Shown here: positions 19,384-26,495 of the stretch, one piece after another | Numbering within the stretch: position 1 is the first letter of the stretch | How the letters are laid out: each line of letters starts with the position of its first letter | From: Rhodothermus bifroesti | GTDB taxonomy: Bacteria; Bacteroidota; Rhodothermia; Rhodothermales; Rhodothermaceae | Length of the DNA stretch: 43,238 bases | Assembly (NCBI RefSeq): GCF_017908595.1 | Contig: NZ_JAGKTL010000006.1 | Coordinates: forward strand, 1-43,238 | Direction of reading: 5' to 3' | Position numbers and translations under genes: made by a program | The notes under the pieces: model-generated | Seen by the model: only the letters and a program-made list of their open reading frames with translations | What the model was told of the DNA's origin: nothing | Database searches by the model: none

Positions 19384-20874
19384 ATGTTACTTCTGGGATT
19401 TGATCTTGGGAGTTCATTTATTAAAGCTGTTTTGCTGGATGCCGAGCGGGCAGTCCCGCTTGCTTCTGTAACGGTTCCAGAGCAGGAATTAAAAATTGAA
19501 TCGATTCATTCTGGTTGGGCTGAGCAGGATCCGGAAGTTTGGTGGCGGTGTGTGCAGGAAGCGGTTGTTGCGTTGCGCGCTCAGCGGCCGTTTGCAGCGG
19601 CTGATGTGCGGGGGATTGGGCTTTCCTACCAGATGCATGGCTTGGTATTGATCGATCGCCAAGGTCGGGTGCTGCGCCCGGCTATCATCTGGTGTGATAG
19701 TCGGGCTGTGCCTATAGGGGAGCGGGCTTTTCGCACGTTGGGGCCAGAGCGCTGCTTGCGTTCTTTGCTCAATAGCCCGGGTAATTTTACCGCTGCCAAG
19801 CTGCGCTGGGTGCGTGAAAACGAGCCCGAGCTTTACCGCCAGGTCTACAAGTGGCTGCTACCGGGCGACTATATCGCCTTTCGCATGACAGGTGAGCCAA
19901 CTACCACGGTTTCGGGGCTTTCTGAAGGGATTTTTTGGGACTTCTTGGAAGAAAAACCGGCCTATTGGCTGCTTGAGCATTTAGAAATTGACCCAGAGCT
20001 TATGCCGCAGTTGGTTCCTACGTTTGGGTTTCAGGGAGCGCTGACCCGTGAAGCGGCTGAAGCGCTGGGGCTGCAGCCAGGAATTCCGGTAACGTATCGG
20101 GCAGGTGACCAGCCTAACAATGCCTTTTCGCTTGGGGTGCTGCATCCTGGTCAGGTGGCAACAACAGCTGGAACATCAGGGGTCATTTATGCGGTGGACG
20201 ACACGCCCCGTTATGATCCGCAGACCCGCGTCAACACGTTTGTGCACGTCAACCACACCCCTGAGCGGCGGCGTTACGGTATTTTACTGTGCCTAAACGG
20301 TACGGGCATTTTGTACCGATGGCTGCGTCAGGAGCTGCTAGGAGGCGCCCTCAATTATGAGGCTATGAATACGCTTGCGGCTTCGGCGCCAATTGGTGCC
20401 GATGGAGTGCAGGTGCTGCCCTTTGGTAACGGAGCTGAACGGATGCTTCAAAACCGCGATCCAGGAGCGTCGATCCATGGCCTGAATTTTAACCGGCACG
20501 GGCGTGCGCATGTGCTTCGCGCAGCCAAAGAAGGTATCGTGTTTGCCCTGGCTTACGGGTTGGAGGTAATCCGGCAGATGGGGCTTACAATTGAAACTGT
20601 TCGGGCGGGTCGTGCCAATTTGTTTTTAAGCCCGCTGTTTGCGCAAATCTATGCCACGGTTAACCGTACGGTCGTCCAGTTGTACGATACCGACGGTGCT
20701 GCCGGGGCAGCGCGTGGTGCAGGCGTAGGCGCAGGTGTATATGCTTCGCCTGAAGCGGCCTTCCAAGGAGTACCCCCGGTTGCGGTCGTGGAACCCGTTG
20801 CCGCTTGGCAAGAAGCCTATGCAGCAGTGTATCCACGCTGGTGTGAAACGCTTTCCCGTCAACTTCAAACCTGA
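19384..20874 (+). CDS. xylB: Xylulokinase (FGGY carbohydrate kinase)
   Basis: Phosphorylates D-xylulose to xylulose 5-phosphate, which feeds the pentose phosphate pathway. The 496 residues match the family. Landmarks: the N-terminal phosphate-binding loop LLLGFDLGSSFIKAVLLD, GIGLSYQMHGLVLID with the substrate-contacting MH pair, IIWCDSRA with the Asp, the catalytic-region YRAGDQPNNAF (GDQ motif), TTAGTSGVIYAV, and a C-terminal AAGAARGAGVGAG segment of the ATPase fold. The sugar preference is taken from overall likeness and from the isomerase 8 bases downstream; other FGGY substrates are possible. Its product is a substrate of the transketolase at 133-2184. Confidence 0.87.
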   Translation: MLLLGFDLGSSFIKAVLLDAERAVPLASVTVPEQELKIESIHSGWAEQDPEVWWRCVQEAVVALRAQRPFAAADVRGIGLSYQMHGLVLIDRQGRVLRPAIIWCDSRAVPIGERAFRTLGPERCLRSLLNSPGNFTAAKLRWVRENEPELYRQVYKWLLPGDYIAFRMTGEPTTTVSGLSEGIFWDFLEEKPAYWLLEHLEIDPELMPQLVPTFGFQGALTREAAEALGLQPGIPVTYRAGDQPNNAFSLGVLHPGQVATTAGTSGVIYAVDDTPRYDPQTRVNTFVHVNHTPERRRYGILLCLNGTGILYRWLRQELLGGALNYEAMNTLAASAPIGADGVQVLPFGNGAERMLQNRDPGASIHGLNFNRHGRAHVLRAAKEGIVFALAYGLEVIRQMGLTIETVRAGRANLFLSPLFAQIYATVNRTVVQLYDTDGAAGAARGAGVGAGVYASPEAAFQGVPPVAVVEPVAAWQEAYAAVYPRWCETLSRQLQT

Positions 20875-20882
20875 ACGCACCA

Positions 20883-22034
20883 ATGGCCAACACACAGACG
20901 TTTCACAGCATCTGTCGCTGGACGTTTAATGCGGGCAAGGGCGGTTTCGTCCCTGCCAACGTACGCCCAGCTTGGGCGTCGAATAGCTTTAGTACCGTTG
21001 ATTTCATCTATCTGGTGAAAGAAAAGATTGCCCCCCGTTTGCCTGAAACCATTACGCTGGGGGTCGAGCTGCACTATGACAACGAGATCAATGAGCAAAA
21101 TGCGGCAGCAGTGGCACAGGCGCTGGCCGATACAGGTCTGTATCTGGCCATGATTACCCCTGGAGCGCACATCCACTTTGCCTATGGCGGCATTTGCTCA
21201 CTGGATCCTAGAGAACGCAGGGCTGCTGAGGCGCTCGGGCAGCGCACGGTAGCGCTGGCTTATGGTCCTTTGCGCCAGGCCTGGCATCCTGATCCGGAAA
21301 AAGCGCCCACGCTGGTGATCTGGAATGGATCGTTTGGCTATGACCTGGCTACCGTGGGCGTCCGCCAAATGTACCGCAATCTGAAAGAAAGTCTGGCCCG
21401 GCTGTGCCAGTTTGAACAAGAGCAAGGTGGGGCGCTGTATATCGGTATCGAGCCCAAGCCGAACGAGGGGCACCCGGCCATGCTGCTCCCTACCGTAGCC
21501 AGTGCGCTGCTGCTTTGGCGCCAGCTTGCCGATGAGTACGGCATTGCACGCGCCAAAAAAGGGGTCAACATGGAGATTGGTCATTCGGAAATGATTGGTC
21601 TGGATGCCGTCTATGACGTGGTAGAGCAGCTCGAAGAGCGGGCTATGGTGCATTTTCATTTGAATAGCCAGGGCTACAACGACGGCATTATTCTGGGCGG
21701 ACCTGGGCGTTACGATATCGATCATGGCACGCGCGTTAACGGCATGAACATTGCGCTCGCTGGATTGCTGGAGCAGGAAGGTTATCGTCGCTGGCTAGGG
21801 CACGATATGCAGCCGCGTCCCTACGACAATGAAGCGCAGGCTATCGATCGGGTTGTGCGCAGCATCCTAAGCTGGGAAGCCTGTCGCCGTGCTGCGCAGC
21901 AGCTTGACGTGCCGCAGCTTTTGGCGCTGTTAGCGGAGCGGGAAACCGCACGGGCCGAAGATCTGATGCGTGCGGCGCTGGTTGAAGCCCAGCGGCAGTT
22001 CGATGCGCTCTATGCGCAGGCCGTAAGTGCTTGA
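20883..22034 (+). CDS. Divergent xylose-isomerase-like sugar isomerase
   Basis: A 383-residue TIM-barrel protein whose motifs follow class I xylose isomerase: W13, H64 (GVELHYDNE), W147 (LVIWNGSFG), E190 and K192 (GIEPKPNEG), E231 and H234 (MEIGHSEM), YDID (D278, D280) and D308 (LGHDMQ). Two departures stand out. The metal-ligand Asp on strand 7 (FHIDLN in known enzymes, 28 residues after the second Glu) is His259 (VHFHLN), as in L-rhamnose isomerase or tagatose epimerase. The GGREGAE segment is replaced by NGSFGYD, and the Asp partner of the catalytic His is replaced by N67. It probably interconverts an aldose and ketose, and the adjacent xylulokinase points to xylose, but the substrate is uncertain. 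Confidence 0.75.
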   Translation: MANTQTFHSICRWTFNAGKGGFVPANVRPAWASNSFSTVDFIYLVKEKIAPRLPETITLGVELHYDNEINEQNAAAVAQALADTGLYLAMITPGAHIHFAYGGICSLDPRERRAAEALGQRTVALAYGPLRQAWHPDPEKAPTLVIWNGSFGYDLATVGVRQMYRNLKESLARLCQFEQEQGGALYIGIEPKPNEGHPAMLLPTVASALLLWRQLADEYGIARAKKGVNMEIGHSEMIGLDAVYDVVEQLEERAMVHFHLNSQGYNDGIILGGPGRYDIDHGTRVNGMNIALAGLLEQEGYRRWLGHDMQPRPYDNEAQAIDRVVRSILSWEACRRAAQQLDVPQLLALLAERETARAEDLMRAALVEAQRQFDALYAQAVSA

Positions 22035-22053: not shown

Positions 22054-22086
22054 AAGGGGCAGGCTGAGCCTGCCCCTTTTTTGTGT
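22054..22086 (+). terminator. Rho-independent terminator of the xylulokinase operon
   Basis: AAGGGGCAGG (22054-22063) pairs perfectly with CCTGCCCCTT (22069-22078) over the loop CTGAG, followed by a run of T. It also separates this operon from the convergent batD gene. Confidence 0.9.
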
Positions 22087-22096
22087 GGGTTAAGGG

Positions 22097-23803
22097 CTAT
22101 TCCTGCACAGACGGAGTTTTTAGGGATTGCAGCAAGCTTAAGGCTTCTTGGTAATGCTGCATGCGTGCTGTTTCTGTGGTCTGGGGAGCGTAGCCTAGGA
22201 TTTCACAGGTTACAAGTAGGCGAAGCAAATGTTGTAGGGTTGGGGAAGGAAGGCCCTGTCGTTCCAAACGTGCCTTCAGCTGAGCATGAGAGAGACCGCG
22301 TACGTCTTCCCCTAGATAGCGGCTGATGGCCCGCCGGAGCGCAGCATCAAGCTGGGGATAAAAAGCACGGGGGGAGAGTTGGGGGGAAGGCAGATCGAAT
22401 GTCTGCGAAAGGGGGTAGTTCTGGCGCAACGGGCGATGCGTGCGGTACAGCAGCAGCGCAAGCACCAGCAGCGCAAGCAGGCCTAGGCTGCTGTAGAACG
22501 CCCAGCGGTAGTTTGGTGTTGGAGAAGCCGTCGGAATGGAAGTCAAGGAAGGGGTCGCAGGGGAAGCTTCCTCAGGTGCTGCCGTCACCCGGAGGGGAGG
22601 AAGCGTAGCTTCAAGGGCGCGAAAGGTCTGGCTTTCGGGGTCAAAGTAGTGCAAGCGCACGGGAGGAAGTTCAAAGCGTCCAGCTGCCCGGGGTACGAGG
22701 GTGTAGGTTTGGGTGCGGATGCCGTAAAGCTGGTCCTTTTGTCGATCATAGGTGATCTCATGGCCGGCAGCGTAGATGGCAAAGGTGGTATCCACCGAAG
22801 GCGGGGGGAGCGTGAGGGTGGCCAGGTTACCACTGCCGGATAGGCGTAGGGTGAGCGTTACCGGCTCGCCCACGTGCACGGTTGTCGGATGTGCAGCTGC
22901 TTCTAAGCGAAAGCGTCCTACCGCACCAGAGAAATCCGTCGGGGCATTGGGTGGTAGCGGACGCACGTGTACGGTCTGGGCTGGCGCTTCAAGACGCAGG
23001 TACTCAACTTGTGTGGGTCCTGAAAAGAAGGCGGCAAAGGGGTCGCGTGGATCAGGACGGCGGGCCACTTCGCTTTCGATGATGAACGGGTCAATGCGCA
23101 GCGTTCCGCTGCGGGTCGGAAACAGGGCGACGCGCTTGAGCACAAAGGTGTAGTAGGGTTGACCATTACGAAGCACGCGCTCCGGCAACGGCCGATCGTC
23201 TACATGCAGCTCTTCACGCCAGAAGCCCTGCGTTTCCCAGGAACCAACCATACGGCTGCGCCACACCTGCAGCCCTTCATGAAAAAACAGGCGGTATTCC
23301 AGTACGACTTGCTGCTGCTCGTAGGGATTAGCGGGGGTTAAGTAGGCTTCAATGAACAGCTGGTGGGGTACAGGGGGCTCCTGGACAGGTTCGTTCATCG
23401 GTGAAGCAGTGGCGGCGTGTACAATGGTGAGCTCGATAGGCTCGGTAGCCAGCGTCTGCCCGCCAACCGTGAGCTGCGTAGGACCAATCCAGGCTAAGCC
23501 AGGCTGAATGGGGCGGAAACGCCAGGTATATCGCAGACGCTGCTGGATACGTCCGTCAACAAGCGTATAGTACCGCTGCACTGCGGGAAGCGGCTGTAGG
23601 AGCGAGAGGTTTCGAGTATGGGGCGGATCGGGTGTGCGCAGTGGCGGAGAGGTGGCCCCAATGAGCTCGACGGTGTAGACAACCGTTTCGCTCAACCCCA
23701 GTTGGGTTGCTTGTACCTGCGCTTGTACGGTAAGGGAAGACGTTTGGGCCCATGCAGCTGCACTGCTTGCAAACAGCCACAGGCTCCACAGCCAGTAGGG
23801 CAT
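22097..23803 (-). CDS. batD: BatD-like aerotolerance membrane protein
   Basis: 568 residues from the ATG at 23803, six bases after the batC stop; a TTG at 23815 in frame is a poorer start. A signal peptide (MPYWLWSLWLF... cleaved near AWAQ) is followed by repeated Ig-like beta domains, with the BatD family pattern (VQATQLGLSETVVYTVELIG, the early conserved block, and VGEPVTLTLRLSGSGNLATL in a later domain). One membrane helix follows near residue 445 (FYSSLGLLALLVLALLLYR), and a cytoplasmic tail of about 110 residues. BatD works with the von Willebrand proteins BatA and BatB and the TPR protein BatC in an envelope complex linked to stress tolerance. No batE follows. Confidence 0.87.
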   Translation of the reverse strand: MPYWLWSLWLFASSAAAWAQTSSLTVQAQVQATQLGLSETVVYTVELIGATSPPLRTPDPPHTRNLSLLQPLPAVQRYYTLVDGRIQQRLRYTWRFRPIQPGLAWIGPTQLTVGGQTLATEPIELTIVHAATASPMNEPVQEPPVPHQLFIEAYLTPANPYEQQQVVLEYRLFFHEGLQVWRSRMVGSWETQGFWREELHVDDRPLPERVLRNGQPYYTFVLKRVALFPTRSGTLRIDPFIIESEVARRPDPRDPFAAFFSGPTQVEYLRLEAPAQTVHVRPLPPNAPTDFSGAVGRFRLEAAAHPTTVHVGEPVTLTLRLSGSGNLATLTLPPPSVDTTFAIYAAGHEITYDRQKDQLYGIRTQTYTLVPRAAGRFELPPVRLHYFDPESQTFRALEATLPPLRVTAAPEEASPATPSLTSIPTASPTPNYRWAFYSSLGLLALLVLALLLYRTHRPLRQNYPLSQTFDLPSPQLSPRAFYPQLDAALRRAISRYLGEDVRGLSHAQLKARLERQGLPSPTLQHLLRLLVTCEILGYAPQTTETARMQHYQEALSLLQSLKTPSVQE

Positions 23804-23808
23804 GGGCT

Positions 23809-24507
23809 TTACCAATCTTTTTCTACAGCTTCGGGGCGTGCGGGAAGTTGCATCGCGCGGCGCAGCGCTGCTTGTTCTTGCTGCTGCAGCGCTTCTAAAA
23901 GTCGGGCTGCCATTTCGGGCGACAGTCTGCCCATGGGTTCCTCAAAGGATTGCGCTGAGGAAGGTTGTTGCACATTGAGGGAAGCTTCAGGTGAAGCTTG
24001 GGGGTTGCCTTGATCTTTAGCGCCAGTTTCCGGTTGAGGAGAGGGGTTGCCCAAGGCAGAGGTTCCGGTATTGGGAGGAGGTGGGGTAGGTGGCTGGTGG
24101 CGCAGTAGGTATTCGTAGTTAAAGCGGGCGTCTTCAAATGCGGGGTCGGCCAGTAGGGCTATGCGGTAGTAGCGCAATGCCGCGCCAATATCCCCGTCGG
24201 CTACCGCAGCATTGCCAGCGTTGTAGGCCGCGCGGGCACGCTCGGTTTCCGAAGGCGCCAGGCGTAGGGCTGCTTCAAAAGCGGCCCGCGCTTCTGCTAC
24301 ATGCCCCAGCTGCAGCAGGGCTACACCTAGATTATGCTGCAAACCGAAGCGCACCGCAGGGTTTTGGGTAAGCAGTAAGCCTTGTCGGTACGCTTCTGCT
24401 GCTTCCGCATAGCGGCCAGCCCGGTAGGCTTCGTTGCCGTGGCGCCCTCGCCGAGCGCCGTCGTCTGTCAGTACCAAGAGCAGCAATAGGACAAACAGCA
24501 GACGCAT
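23809..24507 (-). CDS. batC: BatC-like TPR protein
   Basis: 232 residues with a hydrophobic N-terminus (MRLLFVLLLLLVL), so exported or membrane-anchored. Three TPR-like repeats are visible: NEAYRAGRYAEAAEAYRQGL, LGVALLQLGHVAEARAAFEA and NAGNAAVADGDIGAALRYYR, with the usual small and aromatic positions. A Pro/Gln-rich linker (TPPPPNTGTSALGNPSP) leads to a helical tail rich in Gln and Ala. The position between batB and batD, with gaps of 3 and 5 bases, makes the BatC assignment firm although TPR sequence alone would not. Confidence 0.85.
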   Translation of the reverse strand: MRLLFVLLLLLVLTDDGARRGRHGNEAYRAGRYAEAAEAYRQGLLLTQNPAVRFGLQHNLGVALLQLGHVAEARAAFEAALRLAPSETERARAAYNAGNAAVADGDIGAALRYYRIALLADPAFEDARFNYEYLLRHQPPTPPPPNTGTSALGNPSPQPETGAKDQGNPQASPEASLNVQQPSSAQSFEEPMGRLSPEMAARLLEALQQQEQAALRRAMQLPARPEAVEKDW

Positions 24508-24510
24508 GAC

Positions 24511-25527
24511 TTAAACAAGCTTGGGCACGCGGCGACCGCCCAGGACAGCTTCCAGTAAAAGCAACAGCACTGCCAGTGCCAGTGGCCACTGATAGCGCTC
24601 AACGTAAGTATCGAACGTTTTAAGGGCAGTAGGAGTTCGGCTAAAGGTATGCAGCTTTTCAACAAGCGCTGAGACGATGTTGCCTGCGTGGTTTAGGTGG
24701 AGGTAGCCTTCGTTGCCAGCGAGTACCTGAAGCGTGGTCGGCTCCAGTCGCGTGTAGACAATGCGTCCTGCTTGATCGCGTTTAAAACCCAAGCGCTGGC
24801 CCTTTTCGTATACTGGAATTGGGGCCCCGGACGTTTCTCCAACGCCAACAGCTAAGCGCGCAATGCCAGCGTTTTCTAGAGCGCGAACCATACGCTCCAC
24901 GTTGGGTGCATGGTTTTCGCCATCGGAAACAACAAGCAGCACGCGGCTGCGTGAGGTAGAGCTCGGCGGGAGGGAGGCGAAGGTTTGCAAAGCTAGCTGC
25001 AGCATGCGCACATAGTCGGTGCCTTGCGTAGGGATTAGCGAAGGATCGGCTATGTCCAAAAACAGGCGTACGGCACCATAGTCTGTAGTAAAAGGACATT
25101 GCAAAAAGGCATCGCCGGCAAACAGAATGAGCCCTACACGATCACCTGCTAAGTGGTCGAGCAAGCGATGCAACGTATAGCGGGCGCGGACAAGTCGATT
25201 CGGCGTGACGTCTTCTGCCAGCATTGAGTTGGATACGTCGAGCGCAATGAGCAGGTCTAAGCCGCGCTGCTCAGCGGTGCGCGGTTGCACCCCAGTGCGG
25301 GGGCCCATCAAGGCAAGGCTCAGGAGCAACACGGCAAGCAGTAGGAACGCCGTGCGAAAAGCGCGCATTGCACGTGACGTTTGCGAGGCCAGGCGATTGA
25401 GCAGTTCTGGATCACCCAAACGGACACGGTCGCGCTGTTGCTGCTGGGCTGCCCACCACAGCAGTAGAGCCACCAGCGGCACTGCAACAAGCGTCCAGGC
25501 GAGTTCGGGATGTAACCAGTGGATCAT
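24511..25527 (-). CDS. batB: BatB-like von Willebrand factor A membrane protein
   Basis: 338 residues from the ATG at 25527, which overlaps the batA stop as ATGA; the longer frame from 25578 lies inside batA. N-terminal helices (WTLVAVPLVALLLWWA and FLLLAVLLLSLALM) anchor a VWA domain with an intact metal-binding MIDAS (DVSNS) and VVSDGENH, and a C-terminal helix follows (PLALAVLLLLLEAVL). The domain order (two helices, VWA, one helix) is that of BatA/BatB. It probably forms the envelope complex with BatA. Confidence 0.9.
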   Translation of the reverse strand: MIHWLHPELAWTLVAVPLVALLLWWAAQQQQRDRVRLGDPELLNRLASQTSRAMRAFRTAFLLLAVLLLSLALMGPRTGVQPRTAEQRGLDLLIALDVSNSMLAEDVTPNRLVRARYTLHRLLDHLAGDRVGLILFAGDAFLQCPFTTDYGAVRLFLDIADPSLIPTQGTDYVRMLQLALQTFASLPPSSTSRSRVLLVVSDGENHAPNVERMVRALENAGIARLAVGVGETSGAPIPVYEKGQRLGFKRDQAGRIVYTRLEPTTLQVLAGNEGYLHLNHAGNIVSALVEKLHTFSRTPTALKTFDTYVERYQWPLALAVLLLLLEAVLGGRRVPKLV

Positions 25528-26495
25528 GCGTCTACCAAACGTCGCAGCCGCGTGCTCCGTAGTCCGATTTCCAAACAAAGCAGCAGCAGTGCTGCCAGTA
25601 AAAACCCTGCGTAGCGCTCACGCACGGCTTCGTAGCGCAACGAAGCAACAGGGCTTTTTTCGAGTCGGTCAATTTCAGCGTAGATGGCTTCTAAGGCCTT
25701 TTCGTCGGTTGCCCGAAAGTACCGCCCACCGGTTAGTTCGGCCACGCGCTGCATCATAACTTCGTCAATTTCTACTGGGACAAGCTGGCGTTGCGGGCCC
25801 AAAGGAGCTTGGCCGTGGCCGCTTAGGCCAATGGTGTAGATGCGAATACCAGCCATCCGTGCTAGCTGGGCTGCAGTGAGCGGATCGATTTCTCCCCGGT
25901 TGTTCTGGCCATCGGTGAGCAGAATGATAACCTTGCTGCGGGCTTCCGCATCTTTGAGGCGGTTTACGGCAGTGGCCAAGGCCGTACCGATGGCTGTGCC
26001 GTCCTCTAGACGGCCGAGCTGAAGCCGTGCTAGCATGGTTTGGAGGAAAGCGTAGTCCAACGTGAGGGGTACCTGCGTAAAGGCCTGCCCTGCAAAGACC
26101 ACCAGACCGATGCGGTCCTGTTGCCGACCCTGTACAAAATGGGCAGCCGTACGTCGGGCCACTTCGAAACGGTTGGGCAGGAAGTCTTGCGCCAGCATCG
26201 ACGAGGACACGTCGAGAACCAGCAACACGTCGATGCCTTCAACCGTGTGCGTTTCGCGTACAAACCGCTCTTGCGGTCGGGCCAGCGCAACTATGCACAA
26301 AGCGAGCGTTGCCAAGCGCAATGCAAATGGCAGCCCCCTCAGGCGGCTCCAGAACGTTTGTGGGACATGGCTAAGGAGGGTCGTGCTGCTAAACTGTACG
26401 TCGCCTTTACGCCGGCGCCAAAGCCACCAGCGCAGTAAGGCCAAGGCAGGAAGCAGGGCCAGTGCCCATAGCCATTCCGGTTGGGCCAGCGTCAT
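25524..26495 (-). CDS. batA: BatA-like von Willebrand factor A membrane protein
   Basis: 323 residues with a first helix (LWALALLPALALLRWWLW), a second near 58-74 (LRLATLALCIVALA), a VWA domain with MIDAS DVSSS and the further metal contacts (LEDGTAIGTALA and LLTDGQNN), and a last helix near the C-terminus (FLLAALLLLCLEIGL). It is coupled to batB by an ATGA overlap and lies 29 bases after the sirtuin gene. In other Bacteroidota batA follows moxR and a DUF58 gene; here the sirtuin and an antiporter stand between DUF58 and batA. Confidence 0.9.
   Translation of the reverse strand: MTLAQPEWLWALALLPALALLRWWLWRRRKGDVQFSSTTLLSHVPQTFWSRLRGLPFALRLATLALCIVALARPQERFVRETHTVEGIDVLLVLDVSSSMLAQDFLPNRFEVARRTAAHFVQGRQQDRIGLVVFAGQAFTQVPLTLDYAFLQTMLARLQLGRLEDGTAIGTALATAVNRLKDAEARSKVIILLTDGQNNRGEIDPLTAAQLARMAGIRIYTIGLSGHGQAPLGPQRQLVPVEIDEVMMQRVAELTGGRYFRATDEKALEAIYAEIDRLEKSPVASLRYEAVRERYAGFLLAALLLLCLEIGLRSTRLRRLVDA

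Follow-up and report, generated by a model that had tools for sequence, protein, structure and literature searches.

Genes at the locus

The window, by which we mean the whole analysed stretch of 43,238 nucleotides from Rhodothermus bifroesti, contains a kinase gene closely followed by a gene for a protein that resembles xylose isomerase (XylA). The features discussed below are collected in Table 1. The isomerase-like protein matches the Pfam family AP_endonuc_2 (xylose isomerase-like TIM barrel) with 41.5 bits at a gathering score of 31.1. Its sole NCBIfam match at E 0.01 is the class I xylose isomerase model TIGR02631, for which it obtains 73 bits and misses the cut-off of 447; its identity to class I XylA is 24–27%. 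Neither the class II D-xylose isomerase model TIGR02630 nor the models for L-rhamnose isomerase (RhaI) matched the protein at E 0.01, and TIGR02630 had no match in the window genome at E 0.001.

Table 1. Features of the gene pair and of the putative active site (window coordinates).
Feature	Position	Strand	Basis
FGGY kinase of a divergent XylB-like subfamily, ending 8 bases upstream of the isomerase start	19384..20874	+	Pfam, NCBIfam, solved matches, tree
Putative XylA-like pentose isomerase (clade A), 383 aa, predicted TIM barrel	20883..22034	+	ORF, Pfam, model, structure matches
Codons His64-Tyr-Asp-Asn67: ring-opening His retained, Asp57 equivalent lost (clade A N/T/A)	21072..21083	+	alignment, conservation
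Codon of Glu190, predicted metal-1 ligand (XylA Glu181)	21450..21452	+	alignments, conservation
Codons Glu231-Ile-Gly-His234: predicted shared Glu and metal-2 His (XylA Glu217, His220)	21573..21584	+	alignments, conservation
Codon of His259, predicted metal-1 ligand on strand 7 (class I XylA: Asp245)	21657..21659	+	MAFFT and profile-profile alignment, conservation
Nine-residue insert GYNDGIILG (264-272) in the strand-7 loop, holding Asp267	21672..21698	+	alignment, conservation
Codons Asp278-Ile-Asp280, predicted metal-2 ligands (XylA Asp255, Asp257)	21714..21722	+	alignments, conservation; pLDDT <50 at 271-280
Codon of Asp308, predicted metal-1 ligand on strand 8 (XylA Asp287)	21804..21806	+	alignment, conservation, model
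Terminator-like hairpin, 11 pairs, then T run, directly 3' of the isomerase gene	22054..22078	+	pattern scan

Relatives of the isomerase are 63–90% identical to it across 11 alignment rows. Relatives with 87% and 89% identity come from two records named Rhodothermus sp. Their contigs appear to be identical with contigs of two genomes in the window's genus, for which six genomes were searched; the gene occurs in all six. We refer to the family as clade A. The hairpin pattern alone is a weak hint, because four such sites occur in the region and 4.4 are expected by chance; a promoter scan of the region returned nothing. Downstream of the pair the window carries convergent genes on the minus strand (22097-26495) encoding BatD, a TPR protein, a VWA protein and BatA/VWA, which form an operon of the aerotolerance type with no connection to the use of sugars.

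Distribution and phylogeny of clade A

Clade A comprises 17 intact members from Rhodothermus, from other genomes of the same order and the same phylum, from one Omnitrophota genome (record L036, genome G369) and from five genomes of the Armatimonadota phylum. A search with the clade A alignment in 345 genomes from the phylum of the window gave matches in 22, of which nine are strong (G000-G004, G018, G028, G144 and the degenerate G147 with 385 bits) and 13 weak. G005 and G006 are further carriers. In the phylum of the Armatimonadetes record L037 (which, like L038, sits in a genome of its own, G370 and G371, respectively) 111 of 291 genomes matched, five with at least 620 bits and 106 with at most 71 bits. 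Nine of the 391 genomes of the class of G144 matched, three strongly including G147 and six weakly; the genome sets of the genus, phylum and class searches overlap.

Clade A is monophyletic in both trees calculated (support 100/99). This and the wide score gap between the five strong and the 106 weak genomes bear out the proposal of the initial annotation that the protein belongs to a separate branch. In the first tree XylA is the sister of clade A (96/88). In the second tree, from which long rows were removed, clade A joins group B (87/74), and a grouping of clade A with XylA is not rejected (p-AU 0.263). A sister relation to XylA was therefore dropped, and we claim only the monophyly of clade A, since the trees disagree on its sister. 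If RhaI is taken as the outgroup, His would be the older state at the strand-7 position and Asp a peculiarity of XylA, a polarity that is conditional on this root.

Group B consists of XylA-like proteins in genomes of the same order (loci L013, L022-L028, L030, L032, L033; see also L077:8728-10203). It resembles clade A in the strand-7 His and in a HYPNE/HYDNE-type motif; unlike clade A, it lacks the nine-residue insert, and it stands apart in the tree (100/99). An FGGY kinase gene adjoins in four of 11 loci (L013, L022, L027, L032) and, in contrast to the partner of clade A, the kinase beside the group B gene in G047 is a XylB over cut-off with 545 bits. The two group B proteins scanned met no NCBIfam cut-off.

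Two genomes contain altered copies. The full-length clade A frame of G147 (L063:8256-9374, minus strand) has R, R, A, S, S, G and P in place of His64, Glu190, Lys192, Glu231, His259, Asp278 and Asp308, so that five of the seven predicted metal ligands are lost, in an alignment that is gapped near 259 and 278. This copy adjoins a gene for a glycoside hydrolase of family GH3, and its genome is without a XylB-profile kinase match. It is a candidate pseudoenzyme or decaying gene. G037 (L029/L078), a genus-mate of G018 and G028, holds a clade A remnant with a frame of 114 residues, counted among the 13 weak matches of the phylum, which suggests loss of the gene. We found no published description of the family in a search that mostly covered literature outside subscription; a prior description is possible.

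The partner kinase

The upstream kinase contains FGGY_N and FGGY_C domains over the gathering score. Its best family is XylB (TIGR01312) with 308.1 bits, missing the cut-off of 380.25, and its two best solved matches are xylulokinases, with XylB of E. coli (PDB 2itm) at the top. With that enzyme it shares the nature of an FGGY kinase with a QMHG motif; unlike XylB, the partner kinases stay below the XylB cut-off. They are 41–60% identical across lineages and 25–31% identical to E. coli XylB. The XylB profile matches two further proteins in the window genome; one exceeds a cut-off for glycerol kinase and the other a cut-off for ribulokinase.

The searches for kinases and for XylA covered 17 genomes: the clade A gene is intact in 16 of them and degenerate in G147, and G884 lies outside this set. 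The best XylB-profile match lies between 280 and 327 bits in 15 of the 16 intact genomes and reaches just 231 bits in G371, and the XylB cut-off is passed in none of the 17; this co-occurrence is a raw count, without background rate or significance value. Kinase and isomerase genes adjoin in 12 genomes: seven of Rhodothermus together with G018, G028, G488 and G489 on the same strand, and G492 in divergent orientation. In G144 the two are separated by about 11 kb within one same-strand gene run, and in G369 and G370 they lie on different contigs. Twelve clade A-linked kinases form one clade (99/98) in a tree that left out the kinases of G001, G004 and G005 (82–83% identical to that of the window) and the weak match of G371.

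The strand-7 histidine and the putative ligand set

The initial annotation had placed His259 at the position of the metal ligand Asp245 of class I XylA. Both alignment approaches lead to the same result: in the MAFFT alignments of 32 and 39 rows His259 falls in the column where the FHIDLN motif of class I has its Asp, and the profile-profile alignment with class I XylA assigns it to this column as well. The profile comparison with E. coli XylA ends at residue 239, and a comparison of His259 with class II is outside its reach. Between clade A and RhaI the profile comparison gave a match of 10 columns only, of no significance; the RhaI His is placed in the His259 column by the 39-row MAFFT alignment.

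In that alignment the strand-7 column holds His in all 17 clade A rows, in all 10 rows of group B and in all three RhaI rows, the last having L-rhamnose isomerase as best family at 579–644 bits (cut-off 646.75). The column holds Asp in all nine class I XylA rows, two of which were scanned and found over the class I cut-off, as were class I genes in the genomes of four further rows. As all 17 intact members share the His, it is not a chance occurrence. It is, on the other hand, no novelty in itself, because it is also the state of the RhaI rows and of group B, and Asp is found only in class I XylA. Being common to several groups of aldose-ketose isomerases, the strand-7 His says little about the substrate.

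According to the accessible text of PMC11194214, metal 1 of XylA is bound by Glu181, Glu217, Asp245 and Asp287, and metal 2 by Glu217, His220, Asp255 and Asp257. For the L-rhamnose isomerase of L. rhamnosus (L-RhI), the part of PMC10908623 available to us lists Glu228, Asp261, His288 and Asp328 together with His264, Asp296 and Asp298, so the His expected from the rhamnose isomerases by the initial annotation is a metal ligand there. The equivalents in the window isomerase are Glu190, Glu231, His259 and Asp308, and His234, Asp278 and Asp280. These seven residues, as well as Lys192 and His64, are invariant in the 17 intact members of clade A. Judged from the alignment, the full ligand set of clade A would be a mixture of those of XylA and RhaI.

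The spacing is that of XylA. Glu231 and His259 are 28 residues apart, as noted initially and as are Glu217 and Asp245, and after subtraction of the nine-residue insert the distances from Glu231 to Asp278 (38) and to Asp280 (40) equal the XylA values; from Glu231 to Asp308 there are 68 residues compared with 70. The insert precedes the motif GPGRYDID, again in agreement with the initial annotation. Its GYNDG part is invariant in the rows of the 11 relatives and its Asp267 in all intact members of clade A.

The position of the Asp57 partner of the catalytic His gives a less uniform picture. It had been proposed that Asn67 replaces this Asp. The Asp is indeed absent, but Asn is not its conserved replacement: among the 17 intact members the column contains N 11 times, T four times and A twice. 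We rejected the idea of a conserved replacement, and the N/T/A mixture leads us to regard position 67 as a lost Asp and not as a conserved Asn.

Clade A is thus like class I XylA of the Streptomyces/Thermus type (TIGR02631) in the Glu/Glu/Asp of metal 1, in Glu/His/Asp/Asp of metal 2 and the catalytic Lys at the sequence level, in the ring-opening His and in the PGRYDxD motif. It is unlike class I in having His259 and the insert. The class I metal-1 set Glu/Glu/Asp/Asp with its strand-7 Asp is not found, and the ring-opening pair His54/Asp57 is only half kept. With the L-rhamnose isomerases of P. stutzeri and L. rhamnosus it would have in common the strand-7 His in metal 1 of a two-metal isomerase. 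It differs from them in the second metal-1 ligand, which is the invariant Glu231 and in RhaI an Asp, and in an identity of 13–14%.

The D-tagatose 3-epimerase family has a single-metal site composed of Glu, Asp, His and Glu. Clade A differs from this site in its strand-8 Asp and in its predicted second metal set, a comparison made at the level of the site composition.

Predicted structure

The AlphaFold2 model calculated from the 32-row alignment has a mean pLDDT of 82.4, a pTM of 0.86 and eight strands, and it shows the TIM-barrel fold of XylA. In the model His259 is located on strand 7 (255-261), Glu190 at the end of strand 5, Glu231 on strand 6 and Asp308 at the end of strand 8. The pLDDT falls below 50 at residues 15-26, 238-240 and 271-280, and part of the insert loop together with Asp278 and Asp280 is therefore poorly placed.

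XylA structures are the best solved matches of the model in Foldseek. The overlay suggested in the initial annotation, carried out with VIA-align 2, yielded Z 31.1 for XylA (318 aligned, 2.7 A) and about one unit less, Z 29.9, for P. stutzeri RhaI (325 aligned, 2.8 A), the latter aligning along residues 1-383. A putative sugar isomerase of Erwinia from structural genomics (3ktc) reaches Z 30.1 with the model; it differs in having 330 residues, 20% identity and no function in its title.

Genome context

In none of the 17 searched genomes, which belong partly to one genus and are partly metagenome assemblies, was a class I or class II XylA found over cut-off; this is again a raw count without background rate. 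Class II models gave no match at E 0.001, and the class I matches under the cut-off are the clade A genes, RhaI in G001 and G004, and weak hits of 26–30 bits in G488 and G489. Among comparison genomes, all picked for weaker, second-tier query matches, class I XylA is present in four of five from the same order and in three of three from the Armatimonadota phylum. The exception is G016, which carries a group B gene and is also without class II over cut-off.

A further hint towards the substrate arises from G144, where one same-strand run encodes the kinase, an SSF symporter, a GH38 enzyme, a GH3 enzyme, a XylF-like and a XylG-like protein, a sugar permease and the isomerase. The XylF-like protein reaches 338.5 bits (cut-off 389.55; next other family 188.8) and the XylG-like one 620.6 of 699 on the xylose ATP-binding model, compared with 589.1 for GguA. 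The permease has the general sugar permease GguB as best model (284.7 of 450), with no XylH model listed. A GH3 gene also adjoins the clade A gene in G884, as in G147. Beta-xylosidase is the best model of all three GH3 proteins, ahead of the beta-glucosidase BglX by 613 to 602 bits in G144, 606 to 530 in G147 and 584 to 572 in G884, and none of them passes a cut-off.

Next to their clade A clusters, G884 and G144 carry genes for GH38 alpha-mannosidases (L123:232-3411 and L124:3671-6076), and G884 has a URO-D family gene there as well. N-glycans that bear xylose would be in keeping with this as a sugar source, which is a guess. The window genome has a further sugar cluster on contig C1 (L068:6186-9982), in which a gene for an isomerase with the fucose-isomerase fold stands ahead of those for a ribulokinase and AraD, the last two both over a cut-off. 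This isomerase has sulfoquinovose isomerase as its best NCBIfam model (94 of 700 bits), with no family over cut-off, and is a candidate for an unusual arabinose isomerase. The genus-mates G001 and G004 of the window genome possess a separate RhaI and a rhamnulokinase-like match, both of which are absent from the window genome in the same searches.

R. marinus is stated in the accessible text of PMC9590192 to be able to live on xylan as its only source of carbon, which speaks for D-xylose; the accessible parts of the literature examined do not mention that Rhodothermus grows on free xylose. For Melioribacter roseus a putative xylose isomerase and a neighbouring xylulose kinase are named in the part of PMC3534657 available to us.

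Proposed function

We propose, with a probability of roughly 70%, that clade A represents a third line of D-xylose isomerases in addition to classes I and II of XylA, and that it has a kinase of its own. As a two-metal aldose-ketose isomerase it would convert D-xylose to D-xylulose, and the kinase encoded upstream would form D-xylulose 5-phosphate. Metal 1 would be held by Glu190, Glu231, His259 and Asp308, i.e. the XylA set with a RhaI-type His, and metal 2 by Glu231, His234, Asp278 and Asp280. By homology to XylA, His64 may aid ring opening. Metal 1 would hold the sugar, metal 2 would move with the catalytic water, and a hydride shift would take place between C2 and C1 with the help of Lys192. 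The neutral His in place of an acidic Asp could reduce the negative charge at metal 1, with Mn or Co over Mg as a possible preference. For the invariant GYNDG insert, a role as a lid over the pocket or as the source of an additional ligand is conceivable.

The initial annotation had expected another substrate range despite the xylulokinase neighbour, an expectation that finds no support here. The context instead favours D-xylose as the most likely substrate, given the kinase partner, the XylF/XylG-like and GH3 neighbours in G144 and the missing class I and II XylA. While this is an argument for D-xylose, one must keep in mind that the XylF, XylG and GH3 proteins of G144 stay below cut-off, that the kinase of G371 reaches only 231 bits and that the Asp partner of His64 is not conserved; our confidence is slightly lowered because the GH3 and permease matches are not very specific.

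Isomerase and kinase could have drifted together from the xylose pathway to another pentose, e.g. D-lyxose, D-ribose or an L-pentose, because both miss the curated xylose cut-offs (73/447 and 308/380 bits). Each partner has diverged from the xylose enzymes that have been characterised, the two track each other over distant genomes, and the hybrid metal site, the invariant insert and the sub-threshold transporter and GH3 matches of G144 would also fit such a change. We nevertheless consider it unlikely: the neighbours in G144 are XylF- and XylG-like, the searched clade A genomes contain no other D-xylose isomerase over cut-off, and the window genome has its separate ribulokinase/AraD cluster with its own isomerase.

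The strand-7 His and the match of the model to P. stutzeri RhaI would agree with an enzyme that isomerises rhamnose or a hexose as RhaI does, or that epimerises ketoses at C3 like D-tagatose 3-epimerase, the ketose then being the substrate of the kinase. This is very improbable in view of Glu231, which is as in XylA, of the lack of any RhaI family match at E 0.01 and of the xylulokinases found as best solved matches of the kinase. The assignment as rhamnose isomerase was rejected, as G001 and G004 own a separate RhaI, that of G001 adjoining genes for an alpha-L-rhamnosidase and a rhamnulokinase-like protein, so that the coexisting clade A protein is not the rhamnose isomerase of this genome. 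It is scarcely credible that the protein is a common XylA in which an Asp-to-His exchange is tolerated and which is otherwise unremarkable: fold and most ligands are the same, but the family is discrete with a wide score gap, forms its own clade, and has its own kinase subfamily and an invariant insert.

Returning to the proposal of a third line of D-xylose isomerases, a more far-reaching version, to which we would give even odds, is that of a third enzyme class whose metal site combines XylA and RhaI features and whose invariant loop insert contributes an additional Asp. Together with its co-evolved kinase subfamily it would have spread among distant bacteria as a xylose module of two genes that replaces xylAB. 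The His ligand and the lost His-Asp dyad would then have altered metal preference and substrate range, e.g. towards ribose- or allose-type sugars as in RhaI.

Significance

Industry makes wide use of xylose isomerase, of which two classes are known. Clade A is a real, well conserved and apparently uncharacterised lineage of XylA-like isomerases with its own kinase subfamily, and a small number of distant groups of bacteria have related isomerase-kinase pairs. It makes testable whether the strand-7 Asp is a late peculiarity of XylA. If the proposed function is true, a lineage from thermophiles with a different metal site and a kinase of its own would provide a new starting point for the industrial enzyme, and it would explain the possible use of xylose by genomes without a recognisable XylA.
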